From an uncultured Alphaproteobacteria bacterium (GTDB taxonomy: Bacteria > Pseudomonadota > Alphaproteobacteria > UBA7985): a stretch of DNA of 55,513 bases. The notes under the pieces were generated by a model. It made no database searches, was not told the origin of the DNA, and saw nothing but the letters and a program-made list of their open reading frames with translations. The translations under genes and the position numbers were made by a program. Below, piece by piece: positions 23,634 through 41,577 of this stretch. Numbering within the stretch: position 1 is the first letter of the stretch; each line of letters begins with the position of its first letter. The stretch spans positions 1-55,513 of the forward strand of contig CAJQLX010000055.1 in assembly GCA_905479265.1 (NCBI GenBank). Reading direction: 5' to 3'.

Positions 23634-24182
23634 TTACAGATCCATCGTTCCCGTCATATCGCGCAGGCGCTCGGCTACGGTCTGCCACATGGCGTTGTTG
23701 GGGCTCAGGGCCAGTGCGGCTTCCACAAACTCAAGCGCCAGTTCAGTCTGACCAGACCGCATCGCAATCTGCGCGCCGCCCATCAAAGCACCAAAGTGCC
23801 GCGGTTCAAGATCGATGGTGACTTGAACGTCGGTCAAACTCTCAAAATTATTGCCCATCAGGAAATGCGTGGTTGCGCGCATATTGTAGGCTTCGGCGAA
23901 GTCGGGGTTAAGCTCGATCGCTTGGGTGAATTGCTCAATGGCCGCTTTGTAGTCAGAGGACTGCATCGCATCCATACCCAGCGTAAAGGCTTCGTCCACG
24001 GCTGGTTGTTCGACGGAGCGCCACGCACTCCAGATCTGGTTTTCCAAAATCTGTCGTTCAATGACGTCCTCGGTCTGGTAGAGGGCGTCGAAATAGGCAT
24101 CAAGGCGGGGATCGGTCTGATCGGCCTGCGCCACCGTCACGGGCGCAGCAAAGAGGGTGAGGAAAAAAATAATCTGTTTCAT
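23634..24182 (-). CDS. small secreted TPR-repeat protein
   Basis: 182 aa from the ATG at 24182, giving a signal peptide MKQIIFFLTLFAAPVTVAQA. Two or three TPR units follow: SSDYKAAIEQFTQAIELNPDFAEAYNMRATTHFLMGN, then ESLTDVQVTIDLEPRHFGALMGG, then GQTELALEFVEAALALSPNN. Likely a periplasmic protein-binding adaptor; function unknown. It converges with the GntR gene and lies before rpmJ on the same strand, separated from it by the rpmJ terminator. Confidence 0.85.
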   Translation of the reverse strand: MKQIIFFLTLFAAPVTVAQADQTDPRLDAYFDALYQTEDVIERQILENQIWSAWRSVEQPAVDEAFTLGMDAMQSSDYKAAIEQFTQAIELNPDFAEAYNMRATTHFLMGNNFESLTDVQVTIDLEPRHFGALMGGAQIAMRSGQTELALEFVEAALALSPNNAMWQTVAERLRDMTGTMDL

Positions 24183-24283
24183 GATCTTAACCATGAAACG
24201 ACCGACCGGCTCTGCAAGGGTCGGATTGTCACAGTGGGGTCATAAACCCCGGAAACTCACGCATCCGTGACGAGCCAAAAGAA

Positions 24284-24356: not shown

Positions 24357-24482
24357 TCAGCCCTGGCGGGCCTTAAAGCGTGGGTTACGCTTATTGATAA
24401 CGTAGACGCGACCGCGACGACGGACGATTTTACAGCCCTTCTCGCGCAGTTTTGCGGTCTTCAGTGAGTTACAAACCTTCAT
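24357..24482 (-). CDS. rpmJ: 50S ribosomal protein L36
   Basis: 41-aa basic protein of the large subunit. Reading leftward it begins [20 protein letters not shown] and ends [11 protein letters not shown]. This is the Zn-ligand-poor (C-minus) form common in alphaproteobacteria, with Cys only at 4 and 17. GGAGAG lies just before the ATG at 24482. Monocistronic, with its own terminator at 24284-24313. Confidence 0.95.
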
Positions 24483-24782
24483 GGCTCTCTCCGTGGCCAT
24501 GCGGCCAACTCAAATAGGGTTCCGAGGAATTGGGCGGGTTTTAACCGGGAGTCTGCCTCGGAGTCAACGAAGCGCAGTCTTGCGTCTAGGGCGGAGCAGG
24601 TCGAACTCACGAATTAAATCATCTCAGAGCGCTTTGTTGTAATATTTGTTACAAGCTCGGTAACATAATCCGTAACCCAGCCAATCTATAGACAGTCCAG
24701 CAGCAGGCACGCATAACCACCCCTTGTGGCGCCCCTCCACCCCTGCTTGATCACGGCCCCACCACTGGCAAAGGCACAAACC
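24483..24782. other. 300-bp divergent region between rpmJ and the pyruvate kinase gene
   Basis: No gene is seen. The notable content is at 24637-24676. TTGTAATATTTGTTACAA is a perfect TTGTAA/TTACAA inverted repeat (6-6-6). It overlaps a ladder GTTAC-N7-GTAAC-N7-GTAAC with a 12-bp period (24648, 24660, 24672). The area is more AT-rich than its surroundings and is likely the pyk promoter/operator. Confidence 0.45.
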
Positions 24783-26210
24783 ATGCTTCGCAACCGACTG
24801 GCAAAAATCGTCGCGACCCTAGGCCCGGCCTCAAACACCGCTGAGGCCATCACGTCTCTGTATGAGTCCGGCGCAGATGTGTTCCGTATTAATGCCGCCT
24901 ATTCCAACGACGCCGACAACGCGGCACTGATTGGTCAAGTGCGCGAAGCGATTTCGGATGACTCAAAGCCGGTGGGCACCATCTGGGATCTGCCGGGGCT
25001 GAAAATGCGCATCGGTGGCTTTAAGGATGGCAGCGCAACGCTGGTTGCCGGATCGACCTTCACGCTCGACCAATCCCCTGAGGATGGTGACGAAACCCGC
25101 GTTTATCTGCCCTTTCCCGAGGCTTTTGCCCACACGCGCGTCGGCGATGTCCTGCGCTTGGATGACGGGCGCCTGACACTGCGGGTGACGGAGGTCACGT
25201 TGTTCCGCCTTTCGACCACCGTCGTTGCGGGCGGTGAGCTGTCGGCCAACAAGGCCATTTTGTTCCCCAACGTCCCCATTCCAACCGCTGAAGTATCCAA
25301 CCGCGATGCGGAAAGCCTGAGTGTCGCGCTGGAGGCCGGGGCTGACTGGATCGCAGCGACGGCCAACGGCTCGCTCGACGTGGTTCGCGATTTGAAGCGC
25401 CGGATTGGCGGCAAGGCGCGGTTGATGGTCAAAATCGACAGCAAGGAAATGCTGGATCAGCTCGAAGCGGTGCTTGAGCTCGCCGATGGGTTGTTTCTGG
25501 CGCGCGGTGATCTGGGTTCTCGCATGCCGGTCGAAATGATCCCCAATGCGCAAAAAGACACTATTCTTGCCGCCCGCGAAGCCGGGAAGCCGGCGATTGT
25601 CGCAGCGCAGATGCTTGAATCCATGGTTGGTGATCCAACCCCGACCCGGGCTGAGGCCTCGGATGTCTGTCAGGCCATTTACGATGGTGCAGACGCGGTA
25701 ACGCTGTCAGCCGAGACGGCCGTTGGTCACTATCCCATCGATTCCGTCGCGATGATGGAACGGCTGATCATGTCAGCAGAGACGGACGATTTCGATACAG
25801 CCGTGGGCCGTGCCTTGGGCACAGCGGGGGAAGACGGCTCAAAGGTCGAGACCATTGGCGGGGCGATTTCCAACGCCGCTGTCTCCGTTTCCAACGAGCT
25901 GCAAGCCTGTGCGATTGTCGTGCACACGTCCAGCGGATCCACGGCGCGCCGCGTGGCGCGTCTGCGTCCGGGGCGTCCGATCCTGTGTCTGACAGATATG
26001 GAAGAAACCCGCCGTTACATGACGGTTGTTTGCGGTGTGCACTCCTTGCACATGCCATCGCTGAGCAGCTGGAAAGAGGTTGTTGAGGTCGCGGTCAAGG
26101 CGGCCAAAGAGCAGCAATTGGGCGAAGCGGGTGAAGTGATTGTCATCACCGCTGGCATGCCATGGGGCGCATCGGGGTCAACGAACATTCTGCGCGTGGC
26201 AACGCTCTAA
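24783..26210 (+). CDS. pyk: pyruvate kinase, divergent active site
   Basis: Pyruvate kinase fold, 475 aa: ATP formation from phosphoenolpyruvate is the family reaction. Conserved: ATLGPAS, R35-I-N37, D69, K217, LARGDLG with D243, QMLESM, PTRAEASDV, ETAVGHYP and the C-terminal allosteric-type domain. Changed against E. coli/muscle enzyme: NFSHG is NAAYS (Ser to Ala39, His to Tyr40), KIE is KID (Asp219), ATQML is AAQML (Thr to Ala275), and ASFVR is ATANG. DLPGLK has Lys where K+-independent enzymes do. Activity or substrate may therefore be altered. Upstream is a palindrome-rich region. Confidence 0.85.
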   Translation: MLRNRLAKIVATLGPASNTAEAITSLYESGADVFRINAAYSNDADNAALIGQVREAISDDSKPVGTIWDLPGLKMRIGGFKDGSATLVAGSTFTLDQSPEDGDETRVYLPFPEAFAHTRVGDVLRLDDGRLTLRVTEVTLFRLSTTVVAGGELSANKAILFPNVPIPTAEVSNRDAESLSVALEAGADWIAATANGSLDVVRDLKRRIGGKARLMVKIDSKEMLDQLEAVLELADGLFLARGDLGSRMPVEMIPNAQKDTILAAREAGKPAIVAAQMLESMVGDPTPTRAEASDVCQAIYDGADAVTLSAETAVGHYPIDSVAMMERLIMSAETDDFDTAVGRALGTAGEDGSKVETIGGAISNAAVSVSNELQACAIVVHTSSGSTARRVARLRPGRPILCLTDMEETRRYMTVVCGVHSLHMPSLSSWKEVVEVAVKAAKEQQLGEAGEVIVITAGMPWGASGSTNILRVATL

Positions 26211-26246: not shown

Positions 26247-28070
26247 TCAGGCGGATTGCTGTTCCGTCTGACGCTGCCACAGGCCGGCATAAAGCCCGTC
26301 CAGCGCCAGCAGCTCGTCATGGGTTCCGCGTTCGACCAAGCTGCCGTTATCCAACACCAAAATCTGATCGGCATGCATGACGGTCGAGAGCCGATGCGCG
26401 ATGATCAGCTGCGTGCGCCCTTCGCCAGCGTGGGCGAAGTTGCGGACGATTTCGGCTTCGGTTCCGCTGTCGAGCGAGGATGTCGCTTCGTCGAGGATAA
26501 AGATGCGCGGGTTCTTCAGGTAGGCGCGTGCGATCGCCAAGCGCTGGCGCTCCCCGCCTGAGAGCTTCAGCCCCCGATCCCCAACAATGGTCTCGTAGCC
26601 CATGGGTAGGCCTTCGACAAAGGTACTGAACGCCGCCATGCGCGCCGCCTCGCGGACTTCGTCCATGCTGGCCTCAGGGCGGGCGTAGCGGATGTTGGCG
26701 TCGATGGTGTCGTGGAACAGCACACAGTCTTGGGGCACCACGCCCAAGGCGTCGCGCGCGCTCCTCAGACGGACGTCGCGAATGTCCTGCCCATCAATCA
26801 GAATGGATCCCTTGTCTGGATCATAGAGGCGCAGCAACAGTTTCTGGATCGTAGACTTCCCCGCCCCCGTCGGCCCGACCAGCGCTGTTGTTTTGCCGCC
26901 GGGTACGACAAAGCTCAAGTCGCGCAAAACCGTGCCTTTGGAGGCGTAATCAAAGGTGACACCTTCGAACGCAAGCGACCCGTCGCCCGGCACCAAATCT
27001 GGCGCGCTGGCTTTGTCGTGGATGGTATTGGGGACTTCGAACAGAGACATCATGCGCTCGGTGTGGCGCAGGCTGTCGAGGATGCGACGGTTGACGATGC
27101 CCAAGCCCCGCAGCGGCTGGAACAAGCGCAAGATCAGCGCCGCCAACGCCACAAACCCGCCCACGGTTAGCGCGCCGGCGGAAACCTTGGGCACGGTGAT
27201 GGCGAGCAGGGTGATCAGGGAGCCGCTGAGAATCACGGCAATCGTCACTTGTCGGATCATGAAGTAGACCGAAACTTTCAACGCTCGGCCGCGATATTCT
27301 TCCATAGCGCCGTCAACGGCCTCGGCCTGACGGTCCTCTGCGGCAAACGTCTTGACGGTTTCGGCGTATGAGAGGCCTTCGACGATCAGGTCAGACACCC
27401 GGTCTTCGGACTCGTTCACCCGGCCAACCAGCCGCGAGCGGACCCGGTCAAACAGCACCACAGCGCTGAGATAGAACACCATCGTCACGGCCAAAATCCC
27501 TGCGGACCAGAGATCGTATCGCGTGGCCAGCAAGACGTAAGCGATCAGCAGCTCGATGATGATGGGAACGAAACTGAGCAACACCACGTTCGCCAGTTCT
27601 TCCAGCGCGCGGGTGCCGCGTTCGACCGACTGGGCCAAGCCGCCCTTGCGATTGTCCAGGTGATACGCCAGCGGCAGCCGCAGGATGTGGCCGTAAACGT
27701 CTGTCGTCACCCGCCGAATCGCTCGCAGGCTGACGCGGTCCATCAGCATATCCATGACGTTATCCAGCACCGTATCCGCCACGCGGAACAGCCCGTACGC
27801 CAGCACCAGCCCCAGCGGCAGCGCCACTTCCATACCGATGCCCAAGTTGTCGATCAGCGCGCCGTAAACAAACGGCAAGCCAATGACAAAGACCTTGTCC
27901 GCCACAAGCAGCACGGCAATCAGGATCAGCAACCCGGGGCGACGCTCAGCGGGGTTTTTGGACCAGACGATTTCCTTAACCAAGCCAATAAGATCGCGCA
28001 GCTTTGGCTTGGATTTACCATCATGAGCCCGGGGCCAATTACCCATGGCAACTTTAGAAACGGGGGGCAT
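26247..28070 (-). CDS. ABC exporter, Atm1-type (half-transporter with fused ATPase)
   Basis: 607 aa: six transmembrane helices in residues ~45-320, then the nucleotide-binding domain. The intracellular segment LRLPLAYHLDNRKGGLAQSVERGTRALEEL is the Atm1/ABCB7 pattern (export of glutathione-linked sulfur/metal species), unlike MsbA. Walker A GPTGAGKST, signature LSGGERQR, Walker B IFILDEATSSLDS and an H-loop AHRLST are intact. The homodimer is expected in the inner membrane. It starts 3 nt after the mnmC stop, so the two are probably co-transcribed; both touch thiolation/sulfur chemistry, an inference only. Confidence 0.88.
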   Translation of the reverse strand: MPPVSKVAMGNWPRAHDGKSKPKLRDLIGLVKEIVWSKNPAERRPGLLILIAVLLVADKVFVIGLPFVYGALIDNLGIGMEVALPLGLVLAYGLFRVADTVLDNVMDMLMDRVSLRAIRRVTTDVYGHILRLPLAYHLDNRKGGLAQSVERGTRALEELANVVLLSFVPIIIELLIAYVLLATRYDLWSAGILAVTMVFYLSAVVLFDRVRSRLVGRVNESEDRVSDLIVEGLSYAETVKTFAAEDRQAEAVDGAMEEYRGRALKVSVYFMIRQVTIAVILSGSLITLLAITVPKVSAGALTVGGFVALAALILRLFQPLRGLGIVNRRILDSLRHTERMMSLFEVPNTIHDKASAPDLVPGDGSLAFEGVTFDYASKGTVLRDLSFVVPGGKTTALVGPTGAGKSTIQKLLLRLYDPDKGSILIDGQDIRDVRLRSARDALGVVPQDCVLFHDTIDANIRYARPEASMDEVREAARMAAFSTFVEGLPMGYETIVGDRGLKLSGGERQRLAIARAYLKNPRIFILDEATSSLDSGTEAEIVRNFAHAGEGRTQLIIAHRLSTVMHADQILVLDNGSLVERGTHDELLALDGLYAGLWQRQTEQQSA

Positions 28071-38306: not shown

Positions 38307-38852
38307 CTAGCGGCCAACGGGGTCGAGCGTTTCCATGCGCGGCACCCACGTATTTTGCGGCTGATCTTTGATCTTCAGGAAGTGGCTGAGCGATTTCTTG
38401 CTCGATGGGAACGAATAGTCGTCCCATGGAATTTCATCAAAGCCGAACCATTTGACCTCAAGCGATTCTTGTCCGGCAACGGCCTTGCCGTCGGGACAAT
38501 CGGCGTAGAAGAAGATCTGCACCTGCGCGATGTGGGGCACAGTGAACATACCGAGCAAAGGGCCAACGTCAATTTTGGCACCGCACTCTTCCCACGTTTC
38601 CCGCGCTGCGCCTTCTTGCAGGGATTCGCCCTTTTCCATAAAGCCGCCCGGTACTGTCCAGAACCCGCGGCGGGGTTCAATGGCGCGACGGGCCAGCAGG
38701 ATTTTGTCTTCAAAGACGGGGATAGCGCCAACGACCACGCGGGGGTTGTGGTAGTCGATGAACCCACAGTGATCGCAGATCGACCGTTCCAGATGATCGC
38801 CTTCCGGCACTTCGCGCCGGAATTGTTCTTTCAAGGTCTGCTGCTGGCTCAT
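38307..38852 (-). CDS. NUDIX hydrolase with N-terminal zinc-ribbon half
   Basis: 181 aa from the ATG at 38852. N-terminal RSICDHCGFIDYHNPRVVVGAIP has two Cys of a NudC-like ribbon. The NUDIX box is GGFMEKGESLQEGAARETWEECG. Family members hydrolyse ADP-ribose, NADH or similar nucleotide diphosphates; the exact substrate is unclear. The stop of pgk and this ATG share one base (TGATG), so the two are translationally coupled. Confidence 0.87.
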   Translation of the reverse strand: MSQQQTLKEQFRREVPEGDHLERSICDHCGFIDYHNPRVVVGAIPVFEDKILLARRAIEPRRGFWTVPGGFMEKGESLQEGAARETWEECGAKIDVGPLLGMFTVPHIAQVQIFFYADCPDGKAVAGQESLEVKWFGFDEIPWDDYSFPSSKKSLSHFLKIKDQPQNTWVPRMETLDPVGR

Positions 38853-40060
38853 CACTGTCGATCCTTTGCCGCTTCCAACGCTTTCACGCCCGGGAGGGTT
38901 TTGCCTTCCATCCATTCGAGGAAAGCACCACCCGCTGTACTGACATAGGTCAAATCACGCTCAACGCCAGCGCGGGCGAGTGCGGCGACCGTATCACCGC
39001 CGCCGGCGACAGAAACCATTTTCCCTTTCTTGGTCGCTGAAGCGATGGTTCCGGCGAGGGTAAAGGTTGCTGTGCCAAAGGGTTCAAACTCAAACGCACC
39101 AAGGGGACCATTCCACACGACGGTTTTGATGCTCTTCATCCGTTCCAGCAAACTTTCCACCGCCAGCGGGCCGTAGTCGAGGATCATGTGGGTGTCTGGA
39201 ACCGTGTCCACGGTCACGATGTAGGACTGGTCCCCACCGTCGATGGTCTCAGCCACGTTTGCGTCTTCGGGCAAAAAGACGGTGCAGCCCGATTTCTGTG
39301 CAGCGGCAAGGATGTCTTTTGCAGTTTCGGTCAAGTCAGCCTCAACGAGGCTCTTGCCCAGCTTGTATCCGGCGGCGAGCAGGAATGTGTTGGCCATACC
39401 CCCGCCGATCACCAGCAGGTCAACTTTGCTGACCAAGTGCTGCAGCACGTCGATTTTGGTGGAGACCTTGGCCCCGCCGACAATCGCAGCGACAGGGCGC
39501 TCTGGTGCATCCAGGGCGGCGCTGAGGTTGGTCAGCTCGGCTTCCATGGCCAAACCAGCATAGGCGGGCAGGTGGTGGGTGATGCCTTCGGTCGAGGCGT
39601 GGGCGCGATGGGCCGCGGAGAAAGCGTCGTTGACGTAAAGATCGCCCAAGGCGGCGATGGCTTGGCTCAAGCCCGGATCGTTGGCTTCTTCGCCCGCGTG
39701 AAACCGGGTGTTTTCCAGCACGAGAACGTGGCCGGCGGGTAAGAAGTCGATGGCGGTTTGCGCCTCGCTGCCGATGCAATTGGCGGCAAACTGAACCGTT
39801 GCGCCCAGCACCTCGCCCAAGACCGCCGCAACCGGTTCGAGCGACATTTCAGGCACGACTTGCCCTTTTGGTCGACCAAAGTGGCTGAGCACAGCAACCT
39901 TTGCCCCGCGCTGGGTCAAGTGTTTGAGCGTTGGAACCAGCCGGTCGAGGCGCGTTGCATCGGTGACGCGGCCATCGGCCATTGGAACGTTCAAATCGGC
40001 ACGGACCAGAACCGTTTTGCCACTGACATCTGCATCGTTGAGGGTGAGAAAACGGGTCAT
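38852..40060 (-). CDS. pgk: phosphoglycerate kinase
   Basis: Interconverts 1,3-bisphosphoglycerate/ADP and 3-phosphoglycerate/ATP in glycolysis, gluconeogenesis or the Calvin cycle. 402 aa. Substrate motif VLVRADLNVPM, hinge sequence SHFGRPKG, ENTRFHAGEE, GGAKVSTKIDVLQ, and the nucleotide loop GGGDTVAALA are intact. Follows glpD by 44 nt on the same strand and is coupled to the NUDIX gene. No tpi or gap gene is adjacent. Confidence 0.97.
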   Translation of the reverse strand: MTRFLTLNDADVSGKTVLVRADLNVPMADGRVTDATRLDRLVPTLKHLTQRGAKVAVLSHFGRPKGQVVPEMSLEPVAAVLGEVLGATVQFAANCIGSEAQTAIDFLPAGHVLVLENTRFHAGEEANDPGLSQAIAALGDLYVNDAFSAAHRAHASTEGITHHLPAYAGLAMEAELTNLSAALDAPERPVAAIVGGAKVSTKIDVLQHLVSKVDLLVIGGGMANTFLLAAGYKLGKSLVEADLTETAKDILAAAQKSGCTVFLPEDANVAETIDGGDQSYIVTVDTVPDTHMILDYGPLAVESLLERMKSIKTVVWNGPLGAFEFEPFGTATFTLAGTIASATKKGKMVSVAGGGDTVAALARAGVERDLTYVSTAGGAFLEWMEGKTLPGVKALEAAKDRQ

Positions 40061-40104: not shown

Positions 40105-41577
40105 TTAGGCGCTAGAAAGAACGTCGCTGATGCGGGCTTTGGTCTCCGCAGAGGCGATCAAGCCAAGCTTGGAGCGCCGCCAGAGGACATCATCGAGTGC
40201 GGTAGCGTACTCGCGGTCGCGCAGATACTCAATTTCGCCCTGTGATACACCGCTGCCAAAGTCTTCGCCCCGTGCGGCTGCGATATCATAAGCATGGGCG
40301 CCATAGTTGCGCAGCAGACGCCAAGCCGTCTTGGTCGGCATATCGGGATGCGCGGCGCTGAATTGGGCCAGCGCTGCGTCGAAGTCCAGGCCGATTTCAC
40401 CGCCGGGGAGAACCGCGCCCTTGGTCCATGTTTGACGCATGTCAAAGAACGGCTTGAAGTAATCGACGGCTTCTTCGGAAAGCTCGCGGTAGGCGGTCAG
40501 CTTGCCGCCGAAAATGGTCAGCAACGGCGCATCGCCACCGGGTTTTCCGTCGAGGCGGAAGGAATAGTCGCGGCTCACTTTGGAGGCTGATTTGCCTTCC
40601 TCAAACAACAAAGGCCGCACGCCGGCGTAGGTCCAGACAACATCGGCATCGGTCAGCGACTTCTTGAAATAGCGGTTCACGGCGGTGAGCATGTAGCTCT
40701 GCTCTTCGCTCGTGCAGTGAACCTCGCGCGGGTCGTCTGTGTGCTCAACATCCGTGGTTCCGATCAGGGTAAAATCCTGCTCATACGGAATGGCGAACAG
40801 GATCCGCCCATCGGTGTTTTGGAAGATATAGGCGTGGTCGCCTTCGAAAGCCTTGGGCACGACGATGTGCGAGCCGCGCACCAGCCGCAGCTTGGCGGGG
40901 TCGTTGGCGCTGACAACGTGCGCATCAATATCCGCTGCCCAAGGGCCGCCAGCGTTCACCACAGCGCGGGCTTGGGCCTGGGTTTCTGCGCCATCATCGG
41001 CGCGCAGGGTCAGGGTCCACAGCGTGCCGTCTTCGGTACGACGGGCGCTGGTGACTTTGGTGCGCGTGCGGACGGTTGCGCCGCGGGCCTGTGCGTCCAT
41101 CGCGTTGAGCACGACCAGCCGCGCATCCTGCACCCAGCAATCGGAATAGAGAAAGCCGCGCTTGACCCAATCCTGCAATGGCGCGCCTTCGGCCCCGGAG
41201 CGCAAAGAAAGACCTTTGGAGCCGGGCAGCAGTTCGCGCTTGCCTAAGTGGTCATAGAGAAACAGGCCCGCCCGGATCATCAAGAAGGGCCGCTGTTCGG
41301 GGGAGTGCGGCAGGCAGAAGCGCAAGGGCCAAACGATGTGCGGGGCCGCGCGCATGATCACTTCACGCTCTGCCAGCGCTTCGCCAACCATTTTGAACTC
41401 GTAGTTTTCCAAGTAGCGCAGGCCGCCGTGGATCAGCTTGGTGGACGCCGAAGAGGTGCCGCTTGCGAAGTCTTTGGCCTCGACCAACAGCGTCTTCAGC
41501 CCCCGTCCCTGTGCATCGCGCGCGGTCCCGGTTCCGTTCACGCCGCCGCCAATCACGGCGAGATCGAAAATCTCCAT
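40105..41577 (-). CDS. glpD: aerobic glycerol-3-phosphate dehydrogenase
   Basis: Membrane-associated FAD enzyme that oxidises sn-glycerol 3-phosphate to DHAP and passes electrons to quinone. FAD motif DLAVIGGGVNGTGTARDA at the N-terminus, ASGTSSASTKLIHGGLRYLE, and the IGTTDVEHTDD segment are canonical. 490 aa. The next genes on the strand are pgk and NUDIX; cobB lies upstream (27 nt). Glycerol uptake or repressor genes are not in the window. Confidence 0.95.
   Translation of the reverse strand: MEIFDLAVIGGGVNGTGTARDAQGRGLKTLLVEAKDFASGTSSASTKLIHGGLRYLENYEFKMVGEALAEREVIMRAAPHIVWPLRFCLPHSPEQRPFLMIRAGLFLYDHLGKRELLPGSKGLSLRSGAEGAPLQDWVKRGFLYSDCWVQDARLVVLNAMDAQARGATVRTRTKVTSARRTEDGTLWTLTLRADDGAETQAQARAVVNAGGPWAADIDAHVVSANDPAKLRLVRGSHIVVPKAFEGDHAYIFQNTDGRILFAIPYEQDFTLIGTTDVEHTDDPREVHCTSEEQSYMLTAVNRYFKKSLTDADVVWTYAGVRPLLFEEGKSASKVSRDYSFRLDGKPGGDAPLLTIFGGKLTAYRELSEEAVDYFKPFFDMRQTWTKGAVLPGGEIGLDFDAALAQFSAAHPDMPTKTAWRLLRNYGAHAYDIAAARGEDFGSGVSQGEIEYLRDREYATALDDVLWRRSKLGLIASAETKARISDVLSSA

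Follow-up and report, generated by a model that had tools for sequence, protein, structure and literature searches.

The window, the whole stretch of 55,513 nucleotides analyzed here, encodes a variant pyruvate kinase (PK) paralogue whose sequence is best explained by loss of the ordinary PEP/pyruvate pocket and retention of the phosphate-, Mg2+- and nucleotide-handling core together with the C-domain. The pocket has been rebuilt along the same lines in all members of one genus and kept under selection, so that the variant probably performs something other than ordinary PK chemistry. The favored reading, given a probability of roughly 45%, is a neofunctionalized phosphotransferase of PK fold whose substrate pocket has changed to take another acceptor or enol.

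The variant gene and its genomic setting

The variant gene and its surroundings comprise the following features:
23634..24194, minus strand: TPR protein gene, a conserved neighbor, divergent from the variant gene (locus comparison)
24357..24482, minus strand: rpmJ (ribosomal protein L36, 41 aa), divergent and adjoining the variant gene (sequence, alignment, motif scans)
24647..24665, no strand: inverted repeat TGTTAC-N7-GTAACA upstream of the variant gene (conservation)
24783..26210, plus strand: variant PK paralogue, 475 aa, monocistronic (open frame, PF00224 and PF02887)
26247..28070, minus strand: ABC transporter (membrane and ATPase domains), convergent with the variant gene (conserved in the genus)

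The frame runs uninterrupted from the ATG at 24783 to the stop at 26210. An in-frame GTG at 24726 offers a possible upstream extension. The ATG at 24783 opens the conserved protein (MLRNRLAKIV) in the alignment of all six genomes of the genus, and a purine-rich AAAGG or GAAGG lies directly 5' of it wherever the alignment covers the region.

By homology and fold the product is a full-length PK-family protein with both PK domains, scoring 248 bits against PF00224 (cut-off 30) and 113 bits against PF02887 (cut-off 28). It clears the NCBI equivalog TIGR01064 with 364 bits (cut-off 306). For the subfamily model NF004886 it reaches 470 bits, below the cut-off of 623, which is cleared by the ordinary copy of the same genome (655) and by the order relative G009 (667). 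An AlphaFold2 model from a 20-sequence alignment (pLDDT 87.8) has the full PK fold; an earlier model from 6 alignment rows (pLDDT 57.8) was set aside. Compared with Zymomonas PK (7UEH), the model gave Z = 52.2 and an rmsd of 2.2 Å over 464 residues, and its best-matching solved structures were all PKs. The passed equivalog cut-off and the intact fold would fit a functional second PK whose kinetics or regulation differ, as in PykA/PykF pairs, and in which compensating changes preserve the use of PEP and ADP; two-isozyme bacteria are common (PMC8637920, PMC5501398). Nevertheless, the missed subfamily cut-off counts against such an isozyme, which we regard as less likely than the favored reading.

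The variant gene occupies the same slot, between the TPR–rpmJ pair and the ABC transporter, in six genomes of the genus, in which the protein is 76–92% identical to the window copy. The five public relatives are metagenome assemblies that bear the labels Geminicoccus sp., Kiloniella sp. or Rhodospirillaceae bacterium, and their isolate names (MED..., SP156) were read as indicating a marine genus. In all six, rpmJ anchors the locus; it is too short for the usual lists of open reading frames. The TPR gene also adjoins rpmJ in relatives from the order that have no variant at this locus (G006 and G008); there the pair is followed by two genes, neither a PK. Judged by eye from the sequence, these two resemble psd and pssA. 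Thus, the variant adjoins rpmJ where relatives carry other genes.

The flanking genes on both sides lie on the opposite strand, leaving no operon. The neighborhood was considered as a guide to function and set aside, as the FCD/GntR regulator, TPR, ABC and MnmC-like neighbors suggest no substrate. All six genomes preserve the left half of the inverted repeat (TTTGTTACA) unchanged. A genome-wide search for the exact pattern gave a single match, in the rpmJ/variant intergenic region; the repeat could be a putative operator for the variant gene. Further along the window, phosphoglycerate kinase (38852–40060, minus strand) and a gene resembling glycerol-3-phosphate dehydrogenase by its N-terminal sequence (40105–41577, minus strand) lie about 13 kb from the variant gene. 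A second gap-like gene stands some 5–6 kb from the variant in G002, G004 and G005 (loci L036, at G005:C23:29914-30876, L037 and L040) and has no counterpart in the window; close to the end of its contig, the G005 frame is broken by TAG twice.

The preliminary description had predicted a second, canonical pyk in the genome, and one was found at G000:C19:54674-56071, divergent from gap. Its product carries the motifs NFSHG, KMEKP, ATQML and LSFVQ, is 40% identical to the variant and clusters with the PKs of its order (support 100/99). The gap–pyk pair is also present in G002 and G005 and in the order relatives G007, G009 and G010. No ordinary pyk was found in G001, G003 and G004 (82, 72 and 63% complete). 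In G001 and G003 the neighboring nuo contig stops just short of the gap–pyk position; true absence was therefore rejected for these two, and missing sequence at an assembly gap is probably the cause. The ordinary pyk beside gap can carry the housekeeping reaction.

Replaced and retained residues of the pocket

Residue numbers of the variant coincide with those of P. aeruginosa PykF without offset, and the segments of interest are as follows:
24885..24905, plus strand: residues 35–41, RINAAYS for the ordinary R(L)NFSHG, with F38A, S39A, H40Y and G41S (alignment)
24987..25013, plus strand: residues 69–77, DLPGLKMRI for DLQGPKLR(V/I/L), with Q71P (114) and P73L (116) (alignment)
25251..25265, plus strand: residues 157–161, KAILF for KGVNV/L, lid Lys157 retained, G158A and N160L/F (alignment)
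25356..25373, plus strand: residues 192–197, ATANGS for LSFVQR, with S193T/S, F194A, V195N and Q196G (alignment)
25431..25445, plus strand: residues 217–221, KIDSK for KIEKP, Lys217 retained, E219D, K220S and P221K/Q (alignment; PMC8637920)
25500..25523, plus strand: residues 240–247, ARGDLGSR for ARGDLGVE, Asp243 retained, V246S and E247R/S (alignment)
25602..25610, plus strand: residues 274–276, AAQ for ATQ, with T275A at the proposed proton-donor Thr (alignment; PMC8637920)
25641..25655, plus strand: residues 287–291, PTRAE retained, with Arg289 the cross-interface arginine (alignment; PMC3467265, PMC8637920)

The translation carries R35, N37, A39, Y40, D69, K217, D219, D243 and A275, as the preliminary description had listed, together with its ATANG (192–196) and PTRAE (287–291). 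That description had overlooked Q71P, P73L, G158A, N160L/F, K220S, V246S, E247R/S, M307T and others. The active site of P. aeruginosa PykF consists of Arg35, Lys217, Glu219, Gly242, Asp243 and Thr275 (PMC8637920), of which two are changed in the variant (E219D and T275A).

R35 and N37 are retained in the first segment, and position 41 varies within the genus. The NxSH motif, which holds the K+-site Ser (Ser76 in the rabbit enzyme), reads NAAY in 6/6 variant PKs. The second segment retains D69, L70 (113), K74 (117), R76 (119) and I77 (120), its replacements Q71P and P73L sitting in the loop between the A and B domains. G158A and N160L/F belong to the lid. V246S and E247R/S fall in helix alpha-6', and M307T changes another universal PK position. 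E219D affects the Mg2+ ligand (Glu271 in rabbit PK, Glu219 in PykF), which is Asp in all six genomes of the genus and Glu in 48/48 ordinary PKs. Position 275 corresponds to Thr327 of the rabbit, Thr275 of PykF and Thr298 of the yeast enzyme; it is Ala in 6/6 genomes and Thr in every ordinary PK compared. Yeast Thr298 was reportedly studied as a proton donor by Susan-Resiga and Nowak in 2004. From muscle PK, Phe194 and Thr275 are known to face the PEP/pyruvate pocket, while Arg76 and Lys157 act toward the nucleotide. Changed positions in rabbit numbering include Ser76, His77, Glu271 and Thr327. At nine of the replaced positions the usual residue (S39, H40, Q71, P73, G158, F194, Q196, E219 or T275) is present in 100% of the 48 ordinary PKs from Alphaproteobacteria.

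The catalytic Lys (K217), the metal Asp (D243), the PEP-phosphate Arg (R35) and the lid Lys (K157) are kept in 6/6 variant PKs. Arg35, Asn37, Asp69, Lys74, Arg76, Lys157 and Lys217 are invariant in the six-genome alignment, as are Arg241, Gly242, Asp243, Arg289, Ser309 and Glu311 and the TSSGSTA segment of the C-domain. The PTRAE arginine spans the A–A interface, and Leishmania PK is inactive without it (PMC3467265). Catalysis could equally have been abolished by E219D and the remaining changes. A regulatory pseudoenzyme, dead or nearly so, might form mixed tetramers together with the ordinary PK or sense an effector through its C-domain. Such a protein would account for the replacement of the Mg2+ Glu, of the Ser at the K+ site and of the proton-donor Thr, for the sparing of the C-domain (2/25 conserved positions changed), the invariant TSSGSTA and the retained interface arginine. 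However, a protein without catalysis should have lost Lys217, Asp243, Lys157 or Arg35 in the course of this divergence, yet all are invariant, and 40% identity to the ordinary PK makes mixed tetramers uncertain. We consider the pseudoenzyme less likely than the favored reading.

The replaced positions had also been said to bind K+, Mg2+, phosphate or the enolate. The K+ part of this reasoning is weak in a Lys117-type lineage. In muscle PK, Asn74, Ser76, Asp112 and Thr113 are K+ ligands (PMC4374775). PKs with Lys117 (rabbit numbering) are K+-independent (PMC8835810, PMC5501398), with the signature L113/Q114/K117/(L,I,V)120 (PMC8835810). The variant matches 3/4 of it, with Leu70, Lys74 (equivalent to Lys117) and Ile77, and Pro71 in place of Gln. 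The Lys117 type is also that of the ordinary PK of the genus and of every other ordinary alphaproteobacterial PK compared, so that loss of the K+ ligand Ser76 does not equal loss of a K+ requirement, and S39A as loss of K+ dependence was rejected. S39A does break the Ser76 site, which both branches of the family are reported to conserve (PMC8835810).

Extent, selection and origin of the changes

Positions at least 95% conserved in 48 ordinary alphaproteobacterial PKs were counted as near-universal (n = 125). Thirty of these are changed in every variant PK of the genus, compared with 1–5 in each of seven ordinary PKs, and 25 of the 30 carry a fixed residue across the genus. The A barrel and B lid hold 28 of the changes among 100 such positions and the C domain two among 25; most cluster around the barrel mouth and lid. 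The 88/125 positions retained in the variant would suit a working isozyme. Against it, S39A, E219D and T275A are absent from the ordinary PKs compared, both those of the 48 loci from Alphaproteobacteria and those on viral contigs (alignment A4), and a true second isozyme, P. aeruginosa PykF, has a strictly conserved active site (PMC8637920).

As had been anticipated for close homologues, the substitutions are conserved, being invariant in 6/6 genomes; the pocket changes have stayed so although the protein has diverged at up to 24% of its positions. The preliminary reading of a low-activity, regulatory or substrate-shifted paralogue is thereby supported in part. Values of dN/dS among the variant PKs are 0.03–0.16, rough because dS is near saturation, yet far below 1, and the variant is under purifying selection. 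That the five named relatives are metagenome assemblies might suggest an assembly artefact. Nevertheless, all six assemblies agree on the variant, and the invariance of its changes in them excludes chance or sequencing error. A decaying duplicate was likewise rejected, with the frame intact, the position the same, the motif changes invariant and dN/dS at most 0.16; decay or artefact is highly improbable.

Among 11 genomes of the order examined, the variant is present in only one genus. No other protein with these changes appeared among the 30 best loci from 385 genomes of the class. A close relative missed at lower rank is unlikely, because it would outrank those matches. No PK of this type was seen outside the genus in the genome contigs searched or in the viral contigs searched, and full-text searches of open-access papers turned up no previous account of these changes in a natural PK.

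The stem of the variant clade measures about 2–3 changes per site, with end branches of median length near 0.4. Duplication of the ordinary pyk at genus level was rejected by the AU test (p = 0.012), while duplication within the order was not (p = 0.082), with caution for long branches. The nearest ordinary PKs share 48% identity and are close by score only, and placement of the clade beside L010 is poorly supported (80/67). The variant is best read as an old, genus-restricted second PK-family copy.

Possible function and comparison with known systems

A phosphotransferase with a changed substrate is favored because the variant retains the residues that handle phosphate, metal and nucleotide, whereas the PEP/pyruvate walls and proton donor are gone. 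With Arg35, Arg76, Lys157, Lys217, Asp219 and Asp243 present, it most likely still binds a Mg-nucleotide together with a keto acid or a phosphorylated acid, and most likely still transfers a phosphoryl group. S39A, H40Y, F194A, T275A and the change from SFVQ to TANG would make the pocket larger and re-polarize it, and would leave it without the usual proton donor. The enzyme would then use a different 2-oxo acid or enol phosphate, or would skip the protonation step from PEP to pyruvate. Counting against a changed substrate, no substrate, partner gene or operon indicates a particular reaction.

The N-domain of PPDK/PEP synthase (PF01326) was not found in G000 or G005 (94–96% complete), and an ATP-type PEP carboxykinase (PckA) is present. 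The variant as a stand-in for PPDK/PEP synthase was rejected, with PckA present and nothing tying the variant to PEP synthesis.

According to a 2023 paper on the family, no known PK homologues lack canonical PK catalytic activity (PMC10176505). The variant would on balance be a PK-family member that no longer catalyzes the PK reaction, fixed in one marine genus and either the first PK-fold phosphotransferase for another substrate or the first PK pseudoenzyme. If so, it would be a natural, selected exception to a family described as functionally uniform, the first of its kind, and would offer a natural experiment on the residues that make a PK. Because it passes TIGR01064, automatic annotation would call it pyruvate kinase, and metabolic models of these marine bacteria could then assign carbon flux wrongly. 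Filing under EC 2.7.1.40 is premature, because the Mg2+ Glu, the active-site Thr and the NxSH features are lacking.

The ordinary alphaproteobacterial PK (PRK06247/NF004886, as in G000:C19) resembles the variant in three-domain fold, length and Lys117-type loop and shares the catalytic Lys, Asp and Arg at 40% identity. The variant differs in its 30 near-universal changes, including the Ser-Phe-Val-Gln stretch. P. aeruginosa PykF (7OO1) is likewise a second PK copy beside a main one, and its identity to the variant is about 40%; unlike the variant, which is without Glu219 and Thr275, it has an unchanged active site and works as a PK under effector control (PMC8637920). With the K+-independent PKs that have Lys117, such as M. 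tuberculosis PK (5WRP/5WS9), the variant shares the equivalents of L113, K117 and I120 (Leu70, Lys74 and Ile77); it differs from this type in Pro71 for Gln114, Leu73 for Pro116 and Ala for the K+-site Ser.

Three further paralogues, L041 (G011), L042 (G039) and L043 (G033), read DRGD for ARGD and PTKAE or PTKSE for PTRAE and form a separate long branch. Like the variant, they are extra PKs with changes near the RGD motif. They are distant from it in the tree (100/100) and, in contrast to it, retain Ser39, His40, Glu219 and Thr275.
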